From an uncultured Ignavibacteriota bacterium (GTDB lineage Bacteria > Bacteroidota > Ignavibacteria > UBA10030 > UBA8401), in NCBI GenBank assembly GCA_903884005.1, contig CAISDA010000064.1, positions 1 through 64,000 of the forward strand: a stretch of 64,000 bases of DNA, read 5' to 3'. The first letter of the stretch is position 1. Each line of letters begins with the position of its first letter. Shown piece after piece: positions 33,902 through 54,723 of this stretch. The notes under the pieces were generated by a model that was not told the DNA's origin, ran no database searches, and worked only from the letters and a program-made list of their open reading frames with translations. Made by a program: the position numbers and the translations under genes.

Positions 33902-33932
33902 CGTTCATCAATTTGTGAAGAGATGGAACATC

Positions 33933-33968
33933 ACTCCGACTCCGGTACATCGGGGTCGGAGTTTTTTT
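33933..33968 (+). terminator. Rho-independent terminator after the first beta-helix gene
   Basis: ACTCCGAC pairs with GTCGGAGT over a 14-base loop and is followed by seven T. It lies 32 bases after the stop and could separate the receptor and first beta-helix gene from the rest of the locus, as a full or partial terminator. Confidence 0.8.
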
Positions 33969-33976
33969 CTTGCGGC

Positions 33977-34015
33977 ATGAAAACTGCCCAATACAAAAAC
34001 GATACGATCAATTGA
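33977..34015 (+). other. Possible 12-codon leader whose stop overlaps the next start
   Basis: ATG AAA ACT begins a 12-codon frame ending in TGA at 34013-34015, which overlaps the TTG start of the next gene at 34012-34014. It may couple translation of the TTG-started gene, or mark a one-base indel that broke a longer ATG-started frame. No ribosome site is evident. Confidence 0.3.
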
Positions 34016-36441
34016 CGAAAATATTTCCGCTTTCTTTGCTCATCACACTGGCCGGCCTGTCGGGTTCATCCATCGCACAGAAGAGCAGCCTTGTTTCGCT
34101 TGGCGCTTCGGGGAAGCTCGACTATGCGCCCTACGCTAATGTCGGCCAGACGAACGCGGTCAATATCATCCCCGATTTTTCCTTCGCCGGATACAAGGGC
34201 GGCGGCATACCGCTTCCCTTCGTGCCTGTGGCCGAAACCGTGAGCCCGGTAACGGGGGATGCGCGTGCGGTTATACAGGCTGCGATCGACCGCGTTTCGC
34301 TGCTGCCGCAGGACGCGAAAGGGTTCCGTGGAGCGGTGCTCCTGAAATCCGGCCGCTACGAAGTGAACGGCTCGCTCCATATTAAAGCAAGCGGCGTTGT
34401 GCTCAGAGGCGAGGGGCAGAACACTCCCGACAAGGGAGGAACGGAACTGGTTGCAACGGCAAAGACGCAGCACGATTTCCTTCTTGTCGAAGGAAACGCG
34501 ACGTCGTCCGAACCCACATCCGAAACAGTGCTGGATACAAAATTATTTCCCCCCGCCCGCACATGGCAGCAGTTCAATGTGCTTAAGGCTGCGGCCGAAG
34601 AATTGGAAGGCGACAAGATCCTTTCATTCCATTGCATGGCGGATGCCAATCAATATGTGAATTTTTCAAGCAGGGAGGACAGTGTCATCTACCGGCCGCT
34701 TTTGGATATCTCCATACGGTCACGGTTTTCCGGCACAGACAGTGTCGTGTCGCTGCAGCCCGTTGCCGATACGTACGTGCAAGGCGGGACAAGTGCAAAA
34801 TCGAATTTCGGAGCAGACATATCACTGGCGATAAAAAACTCCGGCGTTAATAATAGCGTCACACGGGAAGCGTATCTCAAGTTCGATCTGTCCTCGGTGA
34901 AGGACAGCGTGACATCGGCCGTGCTGAAACTCTACGCCAAAAAAGACCTTGCGGGCGATGCCGCCGCTTTAAAAATCGTGTATATTTCCGTCTCTTCCAT
35001 TGCATTCGATGCGTGGGATGAAATGACGCTCACATATGAGACACGGCCGCAGGCGGGCGGGGCCGCCGGTTCGCGGCGGATCACGACGGCGTACGTGCCC
35101 TCCGGCGCAAAAAGTTTTGATGTGGATAGTTCGGCCGGCTTTGCCGTGGGGGATACGATCAATGTCACGCGGACACCGAACGATGCGTGGATCACCGCGC
35201 TCGACATGGCGCAGTATGGCTGGGTGGCATCGGAATATCGGATCTCGTATGAACGCATCATCACCGGCGTGAGTGGCAGGACCATCACTGTCAATATTCC
35301 GCTGGTCCAGGCGCTCGAAAATGGATATGGCGGCGGCGAGATCATTAAATCGTCGGTGAAGGGAAGGATCAGCAATTGCGGCGTTGAGAATATGTTGATC
35401 TCTTCCTATTACGCGAGCGATGAAGACGAAAGCCATGGATGGGCGGCCGTCACACTGTCTGAGACGATGCACAGCTGGGTCCGCCGGGTCACCGCACGAT
35501 ATTTCGGGTATTCCTGCGTGTCGCTGAGCCAGGCCTTTAACAGCACGATCGAGGAATGCGCTCAGCTCGATCCGAAATCCATCACCACCGGTTCGCGCAA
35601 ATATTCGTTTTATATAGACAAGGGTTCGTTCAATCTCTTTCAGCGATGCTTTGCCCGCGGAGGCAGGCACGATTTTGTCACCGGTTCCCGCGTTGCCGGG
35701 CCGAACGTGTTCGTCGACGGCTACTCGACGCAAACATATGCCGATATCGGCCCCCACCACCGCTATGCGACGGGATTGCTGTTCGACAATATTCAGGGCG
35801 GAGAAACACGCGTGCAAAACCGCGGCGCCATGGGCTCGGGCCATGGCTGGGCCGGCGCCCAAACATTGTTTTGGAACTGCATCTCGAACACAAGCGAATT
35901 TAAGGTGGAAAGTCCAACCGGGGCCATGAATTGGGGCATCGGCTGCAAGGGGATTGTTCAAAATGGCGCCGGATTCTGGGAAAGCTGGGGTGCTCCGGTC
36001 ACGCCGCGCAGCCTGTATTTCCAGCAATTGCGCGACCGTCTCGGCGCAGCTGCGGTCGAAAATGTGTCAGTACCCGAACAGCGCACAGGCGCGATCTGGA
36101 CGCTGCTCGCGCAATGGGCCGGCTTCGGCAGCTTGACCGCTGCGACAGGCATCACTCCACATACCGAAGGCATGCCCCGTCAGTATTCCCTGTCTCAAAA
36201 TTTTCCGAACCCGTTCAACCCTGCAACGACGATCGGATATGAAGTGCCTGTGCGAACCACTGTCGTCCTTACAGTCTACGACGTTCTTGGGCATGAAATT
36301 CAAACGCTCGTGAACGACACGCAGGACGCCGGTGCGTATTCCGTCCGGTTCGATGTATCGTCCCTCTCATCGGGAGTGTATTTTTATTCCATGCGCGCGG
36401 CGGACTATGTCTCGAATAAAAAAATGACGGTGATCAAATGA
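34012..36441 (+). CDS. Secreted beta-helix protein with inserted CBM96-like domain and T9SS domain
   Basis: 809 residues from the TTG at 34012, which gives a clean signal peptide (TKIFPLSLLITLAGLSGSS). The N-terminus has the pectate-lyase-3-like DFSFAGYKGGGIPLP and a coil region (GRYEVNGSLHIKASGVVLRGEG). At about residues 240-350 lies a DNRLRE/disaggregatase-type beta-sandwich (VADTYVQGGTS, AYLKFDLSSV, DEMTLTYETRP), a fold now classed as CBM96. The helix then resumes (GPNVFVDGY, GSGHGW, MNWGIGCKG), followed by a T9SS domain (NFPNPFNPATTIGY). An upstream TTG at 33970 overlaps the terminator and is unlikely. It is a paralogue of the gene at 52660, which lacks the insert. Confidence 0.78.
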   Translation: MTKIFPLSLLITLAGLSGSSIAQKSSLVSLGASGKLDYAPYANVGQTNAVNIIPDFSFAGYKGGGIPLPFVPVAETVSPVTGDARAVIQAAIDRVSLLPQDAKGFRGAVLLKSGRYEVNGSLHIKASGVVLRGEGQNTPDKGGTELVATAKTQHDFLLVEGNATSSEPTSETVLDTKLFPPARTWQQFNVLKAAAEELEGDKILSFHCMADANQYVNFSSREDSVIYRPLLDISIRSRFSGTDSVVSLQPVADTYVQGGTSAKSNFGADISLAIKNSGVNNSVTREAYLKFDLSSVKDSVTSAVLKLYAKKDLAGDAAALKIVYISVSSIAFDAWDEMTLTYETRPQAGGAAGSRRITTAYVPSGAKSFDVDSSAGFAVGDTINVTRTPNDAWITALDMAQYGWVASEYRISYERIITGVSGRTITVNIPLVQALENGYGGGEIIKSSVKGRISNCGVENMLISSYYASDEDESHGWAAVTLSETMHSWVRRVTARYFGYSCVSLSQAFNSTIEECAQLDPKSITTGSRKYSFYIDKGSFNLFQRCFARGGRHDFVTGSRVAGPNVFVDGYSTQTYADIGPHHRYATGLLFDNIQGGETRVQNRGAMGSGHGWAGAQTLFWNCISNTSEFKVESPTGAMNWGIGCKGIVQNGAGFWESWGAPVTPRSLYFQQLRDRLGAAAVENVSVPEQRTGAIWTLLAQWAGFGSLTAATGITPHTEGMPRQYSLSQNFPNPFNPATTIGYEVPVRTTVVLTVYDVLGHEIQTLVNDTQDAGAYSVRFDVSSLSSGVYFYSMRAADYVSNKKMTVIK

Positions 36442-38959: not shown

Positions 38960-41900
38960 ATGAACAATGTACATGTGCGGTGGATGCTTCGCGTGTCGAT
39001 AGTTTGTCTGTTCGCACTTATGGCGGGAACCGGAAGTACGCACGCTCTACCCAATCGTGCGTCGTATCAGAACCCGATCGTCCCGGGATTCAATCCCGAT
39101 CCCAGCATCTGCCGTGTCGGGGAGGATTATTATCTGGTCACATCGACGTTCGAATATTTCCCCGGCGTTCCCGTTTATCACAGCCGCGACCTTGTCCATT
39201 GGACGATGATCGGTCACGTGCTCGACCGTCCGTCGCAGCTGGACTTGGACAGCATTGCATGTTCCGGCGGCATCTATGCTCCGACCATCCGCTATCATAA
39301 CGGCACGTTCTATATGATCACGACCCTGGTGGGGCAGACGAGAACGCCTCAGCATCGCAATTTTATCGTCACGGCCACAAACCCGGCCGGTCCCTGGTCC
39401 GAGCCCCATTGGATCGCCGATGCGCCGGGCATCGACCCGTCGCTGTTTTTCGATGACAACGGCAAGGTCTACTATTCCGGAAACGATTCACCGAAACTGA
39501 AACTGTGGGACAAGCACCGCAACATCTGGCTGCAGGAATTGGATGTCAAGACATGGACGCTCGTCGGAAAAAGAGTCGATGTGCTGGACGGCGGCGAATA
39601 TTATAAAAAAGGAACGCTCGACGGCGGCATCGAATCGGGCGTGAACAACTATGAAGCGTCTCATCTTTATAAGAAGGATGGAACATATTATCTGCTCATC
39701 GCGCACGGCGGCACGAGCCAGAACCATGCCGTCTCCATCTGGCGAAGCGAACATGTGTTCGGCCCGTACGAGATGAATCCCTCGAACCCGATCCTCACAC
39801 ACCGCGATCTGCCCAGAGACCATGCGTTCACCTCCACCGGTCACGCAGATCTTGTGCAGACGCTACACGGGGATTGGTGGATCGTGTATCTCGCAAAGCG
39901 TCCGTACGGCGGGGAGAATTTTATTTTAGGCCGGGAGACGTTCATGTCTCCTGTCGATTGGAGCGGCGTGTGGCCCGTGGTGAATCCGAAGGGAACACGT
40001 GGGCGCGGCGAGCCGACTCATGCGGCACCGTCACTGAAGGCGGGCACATTCACGCCCGAAAGCCCGAAGGATGATTTCACAGCACCCGCCTTGCGCCCGT
40101 CGTGGACGTTCATTCGTACCCCGCGCTCGCAGTGGTGGTCGCTCACGCGGCGCACAGGGTTCCTCCGCATCGATCTCCGTCCCGAAACGATCTCGCAACA
40201 GGCCAATCCTTCGTTCATCGGCAGGCGGCAGGAACAGAAGAATTTTTCGGCGGCGGTGAACATGGAGTTCACCCCCCGCTCCGACAATGAAGAAGCCGGC
40301 CTGGTCGTTGAACGCGACAGGGATTATTATTTGAAGCTCACGCTCGGCATGAACAATGGGAAACGTGTGCTGCGCCTGACACAAAAGAGCGGCGCCGGAA
40401 GCACCGATTCCCTCCTGGCGCAAACCGTGATTGATCCAGGCGTGCACGTGCTGAGAATTTCCGCCGAGGGCACCAACTATACTTTTTCGTACTCGGTCAA
40501 TGGTAATGAATGGAAGACGCTGCAAAAAAACGTCGACGGCCGATTGCTGGGAGTCGCCAACGCCGGCCGGTTCACGGGAACATTCATCGGCATGTACGCG
40601 TCGTCCAACGGCGCCGCGTCTGCGAATTACGCCGATGTCGACTGGTTCAGCTGCGAGGCGGCGCACGACCCGCTCGAACTGCCGCGCTTCATCGGCGACG
40701 GCATGGTGCTGCAGCGCAACATGCCCATCCCGATCTGGGGCTGGGCCGAGCCCGGCGAAAAAGTGCTAATATCCTTTCTGAGCAAAAAATACACGGCCGA
40801 GGCAGGGGCGGATGGAAAATGGTATGCCAAGCTGCAAGCGGCCAAACCCGGCGGTCCGTTCGACATGACCATTCAAGGCGGCAACCGGATCACCATTAAA
40901 AATATTTTGATCGGCGACGTCTGGTTCTGTTCGGGCCAGTCGAATATGGAATTTGAAATGTCGAAGGCACGCGAAAAATATGCAGACGTCATCAGCGCGT
41001 CCGCCAACGATCGCATCCGGCAGTTCCTCGTGAAACGCCGCATCAGCTTCACCCAGTACCGGGACGTCGAATCGGACGAGAGCTGGCAGGCCGCAACTCC
41101 CGCATCGGTCCTGAAATTTACCGCGGTCGGATATTTTTTCGCAAAAAATCTCTACGCTCACTATCATGTGCCGATCGGTCTCATCAATTGCAGCTATGGC
41201 GGCACTCCGGCGGAAGCATGGATGAGCGACGATGCCGTGAAGGAGTTTCCGGCGCACTACGCCAAAGCGATGGAATTCAAAGACACGGCAAAAGTGAACA
41301 GCATCACCGCATCCGATATTCGGAAGGCCGCCGACTGGTACAGCCGTGTCAACCGGAGCGACAGCGGATTGGTTCAGCGCTGGTATTCTTCCGCGTACGA
41401 CGCCTCTGAGTGGAAGACCATGCCCATGCCGAATTACTGGCAGGACCAGGGCCTGAAGGATGTGGACGGCGGCGTGGTCTGGTTTAAAAAAGAGATCGAT
41501 GTGCCGGCATCACTGGCCGGAAAACAAGCGACGCTGCGTTTGGGAAATATCGTCATGCGCGATTCCACATTCATCAATGGCGTGTGTGTGGGAAGCACGA
41601 CAAATAAATATCCGGCGAGAAAATATGTTGTCGGCGCCTCGCTCCTGAAGGCGGGGGCGAACACCATTACCGTTCGCGTTCTCAATGAAAGCGGCGACGG
41701 CGGCTTCATCAAAGACAAGCCGTACCGGCTGGAGATCGGCGACAAGAGCATCGACCTTTCGGGGGAATGGAAATATAAACTCGCTGTCAAATCCCCGCCG
41801 CTCAAGAGGGATGATGTCACTCGGTTTCAGGTGCAGCCCACGGCGATGTATCACGGCATGCTCTCGCCGCTCATCGGAGCCGGCATCAAAGGCGTCATCT

Positions 41901-42541
41901 GGTACCAGGGCGAAACGAATGTCGGCCGGGCCAAGGATTACCGGACGCTTTTCCCCGCGCTCATTAACAGCTGGCGCAAGGAATGGAAGCAGGGCGAGGT
42001 GCCGTTTCTCTTCGTGCAGCTGGCAAACATCAACAAGCCAAAACCCGAGCCGGCGGAAAGTAAACTTGCCGAACTGCAGGAAGCCCAGGCTCTCGCACTT
42101 TCTCTGCCGAATACCGGAATGGCCGTCGCCAACGACATCGGCGAGTGGAACGACGTGCATCCGCTCAACAAGGCGGAAGTCGGGCGGCGTCTGGCCCTGG
42201 CCGCACGAAAAGTCGCCTACGGCGAAAAAAATATCGTATCATCCGGCCCGCTCTACCGGTCCATGACGATCCACGGCAGCACAATCACACTCACGTTTTC
42301 AAACGTCGGCACCGGACTCGCGGCGAAGGACGGCGCCGAACTGAAATATTTTTCCATCGCCGGCGCCGATAAAAAATTCGTGTGGGCACAGGCAAAAATT
42401 GTCGGCCGCACTGTCGTGGTGTGGAGCGACTCCGTCACCGCCCCCGTCGCGGTCCGCTATGCCTGGGCGGACAACCCCGTCTGTGCGAACCTGGCGAACA
42501 AAGAGGGACTGCCGGCCTCATGCTTCCGGACGGATCAATAA
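38960..42541 (+). CDS. GH43 glycosidase fused to a sialate O-acetylesterase-type domain
   Basis: 1193 residues with a signal peptide (to about residue 29) and no T9SS tag. The N-terminal GH43 five-bladed propeller starts YQNPIVPGFNPDPS; predicted base Asp47, pKa modulator Asp159 (GIDPS) and acid Glu232, which sits in EASH where most relatives have EGPH. A GH43 C-terminal beta-sandwich (about 360-565) follows. From about 580 a SASA esterase domain has GQSNM (nucleophile Ser661), IWYQGETN and DVHP (His1067), with a jelly-roll insert around 800-930. Expected activities are arabinofuranosidase or xylosidase plus deacetylation. Confidence 0.9.
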   Translation: MNNVHVRWMLRVSIVCLFALMAGTGSTHALPNRASYQNPIVPGFNPDPSICRVGEDYYLVTSTFEYFPGVPVYHSRDLVHWTMIGHVLDRPSQLDLDSIACSGGIYAPTIRYHNGTFYMITTLVGQTRTPQHRNFIVTATNPAGPWSEPHWIADAPGIDPSLFFDDNGKVYYSGNDSPKLKLWDKHRNIWLQELDVKTWTLVGKRVDVLDGGEYYKKGTLDGGIESGVNNYEASHLYKKDGTYYLLIAHGGTSQNHAVSIWRSEHVFGPYEMNPSNPILTHRDLPRDHAFTSTGHADLVQTLHGDWWIVYLAKRPYGGENFILGRETFMSPVDWSGVWPVVNPKGTRGRGEPTHAAPSLKAGTFTPESPKDDFTAPALRPSWTFIRTPRSQWWSLTRRTGFLRIDLRPETISQQANPSFIGRRQEQKNFSAAVNMEFTPRSDNEEAGLVVERDRDYYLKLTLGMNNGKRVLRLTQKSGAGSTDSLLAQTVIDPGVHVLRISAEGTNYTFSYSVNGNEWKTLQKNVDGRLLGVANAGRFTGTFIGMYASSNGAASANYADVDWFSCEAAHDPLELPRFIGDGMVLQRNMPIPIWGWAEPGEKVLISFLSKKYTAEAGADGKWYAKLQAAKPGGPFDMTIQGGNRITIKNILIGDVWFCSGQSNMEFEMSKAREKYADVISASANDRIRQFLVKRRISFTQYRDVESDESWQAATPASVLKFTAVGYFFAKNLYAHYHVPIGLINCSYGGTPAEAWMSDDAVKEFPAHYAKAMEFKDTAKVNSITASDIRKAADWYSRVNRSDSGLVQRWYSSAYDASEWKTMPMPNYWQDQGLKDVDGGVVWFKKEIDVPASLAGKQATLRLGNIVMRDSTFINGVCVGSTTNKYPARKYVVGASLLKAGANTITVRVLNESGDGGFIKDKPYRLEIGDKSIDLSGEWKYKLAVKSPPLKRDDVTRFQVQPTAMYHGMLSPLIGAGIKGVIWYQGETNVGRAKDYRTLFPALINSWRKEWKQGEVPFLFVQLANINKPKPEPAESKLAELQEAQALALSLPNTGMAVANDIGEWNDVHPLNKAEVGRRLALAARKVAYGEKNIVSSGPLYRSMTIHGSTITLTFSNVGTGLAAKDGAELKYFSIAGADKKFVWAQAKIVGRTVVVWSDSVTAPVAVRYAWADNPVCANLANKEGLPASCFRTDQ

Positions 42542-52659: not shown

Positions 52660-54723
52660 ATGAATACATATCGATTTATCGTTTCATGTTCCATTGCGTT
52701 AGCCCTGGCTGCAAGCGCGAATGCGAAGACAACAACTGCACGGGCGCGGGCTCAGAGTGAATGGGTGCACCCCGGTTCCGACGGCCGCCTGGTGTATAAG
52801 TCGACGCCTCGAGGCGATAGGATACTTGATTTTTCGTTTGCAGGCTACATGGGCGGAGGCGTGGCACTGCCCGATGTTCCAGTGAAGCGGACGGTGCAGC
52901 CCGCAGCCGATGCGGACAACACGGCCGCGATACAGTCTGCCATTAACGACGTGGCGGCGATGCCCATCGTGAACGGCTTCCGCGGGGCGGTTGTGCTCTC
53001 TCCGGGCATGTTTGCCTGCTCGGGTTCGATCGCGATTCCTGCGAGCGGCATCGTGCTGCGCGGCAGCGGTGTGGGCGCCACGACAATTCGCATGTCTGGC
53101 GGGAAGCATTGCGCGATCGTGATCGGCAGCGAAAAGGATAACAGATCGGCTCGCCCTTCCGCTTCGGCGGACCGGGCACTGAGTACGTCCATCGCCGATC
53201 GGTATATTCCCTTCGGTGCCACGGTGTTCACTGTGGCCGATGCCGGCGGATTGAAAACCGGCGATCTCATCGAGATCAAACGTCCGGTGACGCAGGCGTG
53301 GATCCATCTGATGGAAATGGATAATATGTATCGCGAGGGCAAACTGCAGACGTGGATACCCACGACGAGAAACAGCGTCATGCAGCGCACGATCACGGGA
53401 ATTGCGGGGAACACGATCACGATCGATATCCCGTTGTCCGATTCTTTCGATGCGAACTATCTTTATCCCACGGGGACGATCGTTGCCACAGTTCAGCCTG
53501 CGTCGCGCATCACACAGGCCGGCGTGGAGTCGCTCCACATTCAGTGTCCTCCCGCCGAAATGGCATATTCCGAGGCCCCGTATTCGGCGATCGATATCTT
53601 TGGAGACGATTGCTGGGTGAAGGATGTGTCGTGCGAAGAGACGATGAACAGCACGACGCTTGCAGGCAGGCGCATCACCGTTCAACAGGTCGTGGTCAGT
53701 CATACCTTCCCGAACTTGGGCGGCTCGAAGCCGTCGGATTTTAGCATCCAAGGCAGTCAGATACTGGTCGACCGGTGCCGTGTGACGGGCGATAACGAAT
53801 ATGATGTATGGACGGGAAGCCTGGTGACCGGACCGAACGTAGTGCTCAACTCGACGTTCCTCGGCCTGGGCAGCCGCCTGCAGCCGCATCAGCGCTGGTC
53901 GTCGGGATTGCTTATCGACAACTGCACCGTTCCCAACGGAGGGATCGATTACATGAACAGAGGCATTGCCGGTTCGGGCCATGGGTGGACGATGGGGTGG
54001 GGCGTGGTCTGGAATTCTATCGCCAAAACATTCATCATTCAAAATCCGCCGGGCGTGCTCAACTGGGCGATAGGGTGCACCGGCAGGCGCGAACAGACAG
54101 CGCGGTTGTTCGATACTCATCCGATCCTTTCGGAAGGTGTGTTCGAATCGCACGGTACCCCTGTCGCCATGCAGAGCTTATACCTGGCTCAACTCGCGGA
54201 TCGGTTGGGGCCTGAGGCGGTTCGCGCGATCGGCTATGCGTCGAACTCGGAAATCTCCTTTCCCAATAAATCTATCCCGCCTCTGCGCGAGGTGCGTCCC
54301 ATGGCCGATGGAGGACGCGGCGCCGATCTTGCGTTCCATCGTCCTGTCGACACCAAAAATGCGCCGCGCATTGTCGGCTCACCCTTCAGCGCTGAAAAAG
54401 CTGTGGACGGAAACGACACGACATACTGGTCTCCGACAACGGATTCCCTGCCCGCCGTTCTGGACATAGACATGGAGGGGCCGGTGGAAATAACGTCGCT
54501 CGAGATCCGCGAGGCACTGAACGCCGGGTCTCATATAGAGGAATATACGGTTGAAGGACAGGCCGACGCCGACTACATCATGCTTGCGCGCGGCACGACG
54601 ATCGGAAACCGCATTGCGGTGCGCTTTCCGGCGGTCACCGTGTGGAAAGTGCGGTTGACGATCCTCAAGGAGAAGACGCACGCCGCCATCAGCAAAGTCG
54701 GCCTGTTTCGTGAAAGCAAGTGA
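52660..54723 (+). CDS. Secreted beta-helix protein with C-terminal F5/8-type (CBM32-like) domain
   Basis: 687 residues from the ATG at 52660, which starts a signal peptide (MNTYRFIVSCSIALALAASA). The N-terminal ILDFSFAGYMGGGVALP and the helix body (MFACSGSIAIPASGIVLRG, GPNVVLNS, GSGHGW, LNWAIGCTG) mirror the protein at 34012, but without the inserted CBM96-like module. The end (about 560-687) is a discoidin-like jelly roll (AEKAVDGNDTTYWSP) instead of a T9SS tag. It probably acts in the periplasm or outside. Glycan lyase or hydrolase activity is inferred from the fold only. Confidence 0.8.
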   Translation: MNTYRFIVSCSIALALAASANAKTTTARARAQSEWVHPGSDGRLVYKSTPRGDRILDFSFAGYMGGGVALPDVPVKRTVQPAADADNTAAIQSAINDVAAMPIVNGFRGAVVLSPGMFACSGSIAIPASGIVLRGSGVGATTIRMSGGKHCAIVIGSEKDNRSARPSASADRALSTSIADRYIPFGATVFTVADAGGLKTGDLIEIKRPVTQAWIHLMEMDNMYREGKLQTWIPTTRNSVMQRTITGIAGNTITIDIPLSDSFDANYLYPTGTIVATVQPASRITQAGVESLHIQCPPAEMAYSEAPYSAIDIFGDDCWVKDVSCEETMNSTTLAGRRITVQQVVVSHTFPNLGGSKPSDFSIQGSQILVDRCRVTGDNEYDVWTGSLVTGPNVVLNSTFLGLGSRLQPHQRWSSGLLIDNCTVPNGGIDYMNRGIAGSGHGWTMGWGVVWNSIAKTFIIQNPPGVLNWAIGCTGRREQTARLFDTHPILSEGVFESHGTPVAMQSLYLAQLADRLGPEAVRAIGYASNSEISFPNKSIPPLREVRPMADGGRGADLAFHRPVDTKNAPRIVGSPFSAEKAVDGNDTTYWSPTTDSLPAVLDIDMEGPVEITSLEIREALNAGSHIEEYTVEGQADADYIMLARGTTIGNRIAVRFPAVTVWKVRLTILKEKTHAAISKVGLFRESK

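Follow-up and report, generated by a model that had tools for sequence, protein, structure and literature searches.

The locus and its two beta-helix proteins

The window analyzed here, a stretch of 64,000 nucleotides from an uncultured Ignavibacteriota bacterium, contains on its forward strand a gene at 34012–36441 (P0001) that we identified from the open reading frame listing and the sequence, and that encodes a beta-helix protein with an insert that we read as permuted. Translation probably starts at a TTG codon at 34012, in a reading frame that is open from 33970. Just 5' of the gene, positions 33932–33967 hold a GC-rich inverted repeat and, after it, a run of T, which together look like a terminator when read by eye; because of this repeat, a longer product starting at the TTG at 33970 is unlikely and the start at 34012 is favored.

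P0001 consists of the N-terminal part of a right-handed beta-helix (residues ~64–176; 34159–34497), an insert of ~187 amino acids as measured against insertless relatives (residues ~177–363; 34498–35058), the rest of the helix (residues 369–705; 35074–36084), and a T9SS C-terminal sorting domain (36202–36429), all on the forward strand. A second forward-strand gene at 52660–54723 encodes an insertless paralog (P0002), found by BLASTP and profile search, in which an F5/8 type C domain (54385–54693) accompanies the beta-helix. Outside the insert the two proteins align by BLASTP with 47% identity over 113 amino acids, in the N-terminal part of the helix, and 31% over 378 amino acids in the remainder (E 5e-44), which bears out the original prediction that they are homologous. 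P0002 contains no CBM96/DNRLRE segment, and its loop at the insertion site is ~7 residues long.

The C-terminal modules differ, as had also been proposed, with a T9SS tail in P0001 (E 7e-9) and an F5/8 type C domain in P0002 (E 5e-10). Scores for the P0001 tail lie above the cut-offs of both T9SS type A cargo models (36.2 bits vs 27 for PF18962; 31.4 vs 23 for TIGR04183). Such a tail is a secretion signal and not a targeting module. The earlier idea of one scaffold fitted with two different targeting modules thus comes down to a permuted CBM96 inserted in P0001 and a discoidin domain at the C-terminus of P0002, which in the scaffold tree is no sister of P0001 but a distant paralog. Tails like that of P0001 occur at ~150 places in its own 4.5 Mb genome (G000). 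In another genome (G460) a P0002-type gene with 57% identity lies directly upstream of a P0001-type gene (L175, 4496–6592 and 6348–9101), unlike the arrangement in the window, where the two genes are ~16 kb apart.

Domain order and predicted fold of the insert

The inserted segment belongs to the CBM96 (DNRLRE) family, as first proposed: P0001 scored 99.2 bits against PF24517 (curated cut-off 26) and 71 bits against NF033679 (cut-off 34). What was said of a CBM96-family module inserted into a beta-helix scaffold common to P0002, which has none, is therefore upheld. Two stretches of P0001 match CBM96 in Pfam. Of these, the annotated stretch (34747–35055; 83.6 bits, E 1.8e-23) spans profile positions 3–98 of 164, with its end at the ...LTYETRP loop. 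Directly before it, residues 182–245 (34513–34704) match positions 96–160 when searched alone (E 2.6e-4), and in the alignments a linker of ~14 amino acids (34705–34746), ~4 shorter in the ortholog L055, joins the canonical C-terminus to the canonical N-terminus. Reordering the two halves in silico yielded one full-length PF24517 match (positions 3–160 of 164, 106 bits). The native order, 96–160 and then 3–98, departs from the canonical N-to-C order of the profile, and for this reason we classify the insert as a circular permutant of CBM96 and not as a standard member.

Taken alone, the C-terminal part scores 21.3 bits, under the 26-bit family cut-off, and its significance comes from the complementary order together with the orthologs. 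The curated PF24517 profile found positions 94–163 followed by 3–102 in G003, 94–163 followed by 5–101 in G016, and 95–163 followed by 3–120 in G460, the C-terminal parts scoring 29.8, 30.4, and 27.7 bits. An HMM that we built from canonical CBM96 domains only gave 94–160 (E 4e-11) then 3–114 (E 1e-23) in L176, 94–161 then 2–115 in L175, and 96–162 (E 0.003) then 3–117 in L055. We exclude an assembly artifact or a frameshift, as the layout is identical in six species. The L176 ortholog is interrupted by N in its assembly, solely downstream of the insert. Judged by its sequence, then, the insert of the 34012 protein is a complete CBM96 domain in circularly permuted order, placed inside a loop of the beta-helix.

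An AlphaFold2 model of P0001 residues 37–735, made with 56 sequences, shows the helix at pLDDT ~98 before and after the insert; the insert itself, a region covered by two sequences only, is below 60. With the helix confident on both sides, and with relatives that close the same loop with 0–20 residues, we rejected the possibility that the insert is part of the helix. The helix fold matches solved beta-helices including the AlgE4/AlgE6 epimerases, GH28, PL9, and others (VIA Z 22–28). Predicted alone from 15 sequences, the insert forms one beta-sandwich of 11 strands with medium confidence (pTM 0.77, pLDDT 76). These sequences include array slices cut in the same phase, which inform each half of the model and not their packing, because in the arrays the halves belong to neighboring domains. 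The two parts are predicted, at the level of a model, to fold as a single CBM96 sandwich. A fold search with the insert model returned generic sandwiches (8pxu, Z 8.0) and concanavalin-type lectins, without the CBM96 structure 7VBO; as the aligners keep sequence order, this absence may be expected for a permutant and speaks neither for nor against the assignment. The new termini of the insert should adjoin each other, since both are ends of one native loop, and such side-by-side termini would fit a helix loop.

The original prediction was of a CBM96 in normal order, ~110 residues long and bounded at 34735 and 35060. Its end is right to within about one codon, and the N-terminal part alone is indeed the strongest match, but the insert starts at ~34498, and the match stops at profile position ~98 of 164 while the missing 96–160 sits immediately upstream across six species. 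The 77 overlooked residues make up the C-terminal part of this CBM96 domain, which here comes first; with this missing third found, we rule out a normal 110-residue domain and leave it practically no probability. Another reading takes the parts for two broken halves of different CBM96 domains, left by a deletion within a tandem array and either unfolded together or paired in a domain-swapped dimer. A slice of an array has exactly such a layout, and the parts would stem from neighboring repeats if the slice model discussed below is right. Against this, the parts complement each other with hardly any overlap or gap (96–160, 3–98), they are kept in six species and under purifying selection, and AlphaFold2 predicts one compact sandwich (pTM 0.77), so that we regard broken halves as very improbable and retain the complete, permuted domain.

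Distribution and possible origin of the insert

We compared the scaffold with ~100 relatives from Bacteroidota, Planctomycetota, Verrucomicrobiota, Pseudomonadota, and others. The permuted insert is present in six species, which belong to two families of a single order. The six scaffolds that carry it make up one clade (support 0.998) within ~98 insertless scaffolds with 0–20 residues at the insertion loop. The insertion therefore arose once, in a common ancestor of this clade, which spans the two families. In a comparison of L016 with L018, the insert has a dN/dS of 0.075 and the helix one of 0.106; the value of 0.075 indicates that the permuted module is maintained by purifying selection.

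In its own 4.5 Mb genome, the P0001 insert is the sole CBM96 detected. We recognized no other permuted CBM96 in 395 genomes of the phylum (26 with CBM96), where matches were checked with our own HMM, or in 391 genomes of the class (40 with CBM96), where they were judged from profile ranges only. A non-exhaustive search of the open-access literature likewise returned no natural circularly permuted CBM96.

Some insertless relatives, from Flavilitoribacter nigricans (L057) and Aquimarina (L067, L068), carry tandem CBM96 repeats C-terminal to the helix. When one repeat period of these arrays is cut at the loop where the insert has its ends, it can be aligned with the insert over the full length. 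A CBM96 domain tree places the reordered inserts with the L057 array and a Halomicrobium PL8 array, at moderate support (0.73). As far as alignments and tree can tell, the most economical source of the insert would thus be a slice taken out of phase from a tandem CBM96 array. We put forward more tentatively, and rate at somewhat below an even chance, that all of this happened in one event, in which exactly one repeat period was lifted out of phase into a loop of the catalytic helix, giving an insertion-ready permutant with adjacent termini and turning a flexible tail module into one held rigidly in the substrate cleft. Because arrays, insertless scaffolds, and permuted inserts all occur in related proteins, the idea that permutation came about through tandem repeats is open to testing.

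Possible role and relation to known systems

In the window, the P0001 locus also encodes GH43, SASA esterase, lactonase, GH3, GH2, and GH51 proteins, a TonB-dependent receptor, and an SSF transporter. In the ortholog loci, the TonB receptor and/or GH43 are retained and are joined by a GH88 protein (L047, 7336–8622), a chondroitinase-B-like protein with a T9SS tail (L046, 6229–7977), and a GH29 fucosidase (L047, 1389–2852). These three additions suggest a uronic-acid polysaccharide, and the substrate is likely a uronic-acid-containing polysaccharide of plant, algal, or microbial origin. At 38960–42538 of the window, GH43 and a C2 domain are fused to a SASA-type esterase in one protein of 1193 amino acids; L046 and L047, two ortholog loci, instead encode the GH43 part on its own, in a gene for 574–593 amino acids. 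For the helix itself, Pfam and NCBIfam gave sub-threshold matches only, the best curated one being a weak local similarity to the PL29 model NF058554 (BT3328, a hyaluronan/chondroitin lyase), and we ruled out PL29 membership on its score of 30.8 bits against a cut-off of 1100.

The most likely role of the insert would be that of a carbohydrate-binding module mounted rigidly near the helix cleft and holding the enzyme onto its polysaccharide. It might instead be a structural spacer or a stabilizer of the helix cap that has lost sugar binding. In favor of a spacer, many DNRLRE domains have no known ligand, and most alginate contacts of the founding CBM96 are gone from the insert. This founding member, TM6-N4 of the alginate lyase Dp0100 (PDB 7VBO), binds alginate through Lys10, Lys22, Lys25, Lys27, Lys31, and Arg36 in its N-terminal part and through Tyr159, Lys27 and Arg36 both being essential (PMC9971899). 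The equivalents of these two, K289 and R299, are kept in all six inserts, and relatives append CBM96 to polysaccharide lyases as an accessory array; both points speak against a mere spacer, to which we give a minor but real chance. Alginate targeting we consider unlikely. The family's founder does bind this polymer, and the helix resembles AlgE epimerase and lyase structures (Z 28), but it resembles many other beta-helix enzymes too. Among the six N-terminal contacts, Lys27 and Arg36 alone have kept equivalents, those of Lys10, Lys22, Lys25, and Lys31 being replaced in every one of the six inserts, and the neighboring genes (GH43, GH3, GH2, GH51, and SASA in the window; GH88, GH29, and chondroitinase-B-like in the orthologs) are no alginate-specific set. 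The ligand of the insert is thus probably other than alginate, and the statement in the original prediction that CBM96 members bind alginate holds for one characterized member (PMC9971899) without carrying over to the inserts, with four of the six N-terminal contacts lost.

Our preferred explanation, in which we have high confidence as a whole, is that of a secreted helix protein with a complete, permuted CBM96 in one loop, inserted once, probably from an array, and presumably used to grip a polysaccharide. P0001 is a T9SS-secreted right-handed beta-helix, probably an enzyme whose substrate is a uronic-acid-containing polysaccharide, and a single loop of its helix took in a whole CBM96 (DNRLRE) beta-sandwich as a circular permutant: profile positions 96–160 first, a short linker between the old termini, and positions 3–98 last. 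The new termini are the ends of one native loop after the ...LTYETRP strand and should therefore suit a hairpin-like insertion point that leaves the helix unbroken. The likely source is an out-of-phase repeat period of a tandem CBM96 array of the kind that some related scaffolds carry C-terminally. Fixed rigidly alongside the helix, the module may grip the polysaccharide chain, and we infer that binding and cleavage would then act together.

The insert represents a rare natural case in which circular permutation is joined with domain insertion, a combination that, to our knowledge, is seldom caught with its likely source still visible. Profile searches bound to sequence order label permuted modules as partial, as happened in the original prediction, and the P0001 insert also warns against taking alginate as the ligand of every CBM96. 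Laboratory circular permutation is used to improve carbohydrate-binding modules and to build insertion fusions.

The insert resembles the CBM96/DNRLRE family (PF24517, NF033679; TM6-N4, 7VBO) in that it is homologous along the entire domain, keeps the counterparts of Lys27 and Arg36, and is predicted to form a beta-sandwich. It differs from TM6-N4 in being permuted and lodged within another domain instead of appended, and in the replacement of four of the six N-terminal alginate contacts. Its nearest CBM96 relatives in the tree are the tandem arrays of L057 and of Halomicrobium PL8 (L053/L054); those of L057, L067, and L068 sit on the same beta-helix scaffold, with one repeat period that aligns with the insert. 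In all of these arrays (L057, L067/L068, L053/L054), the repeats are in canonical phase and C-terminal, unlike the insert. An engineered parallel is CP90, a circular permutant of the starch-binding domain RoCBM21, which folds and has a raised affinity for long chains (PMC3511584). The insert is likewise a carbohydrate-binding module with relocated termini, but a natural one, from another family and inserted into a probable enzyme, whereas CP90 is a laboratory construct.
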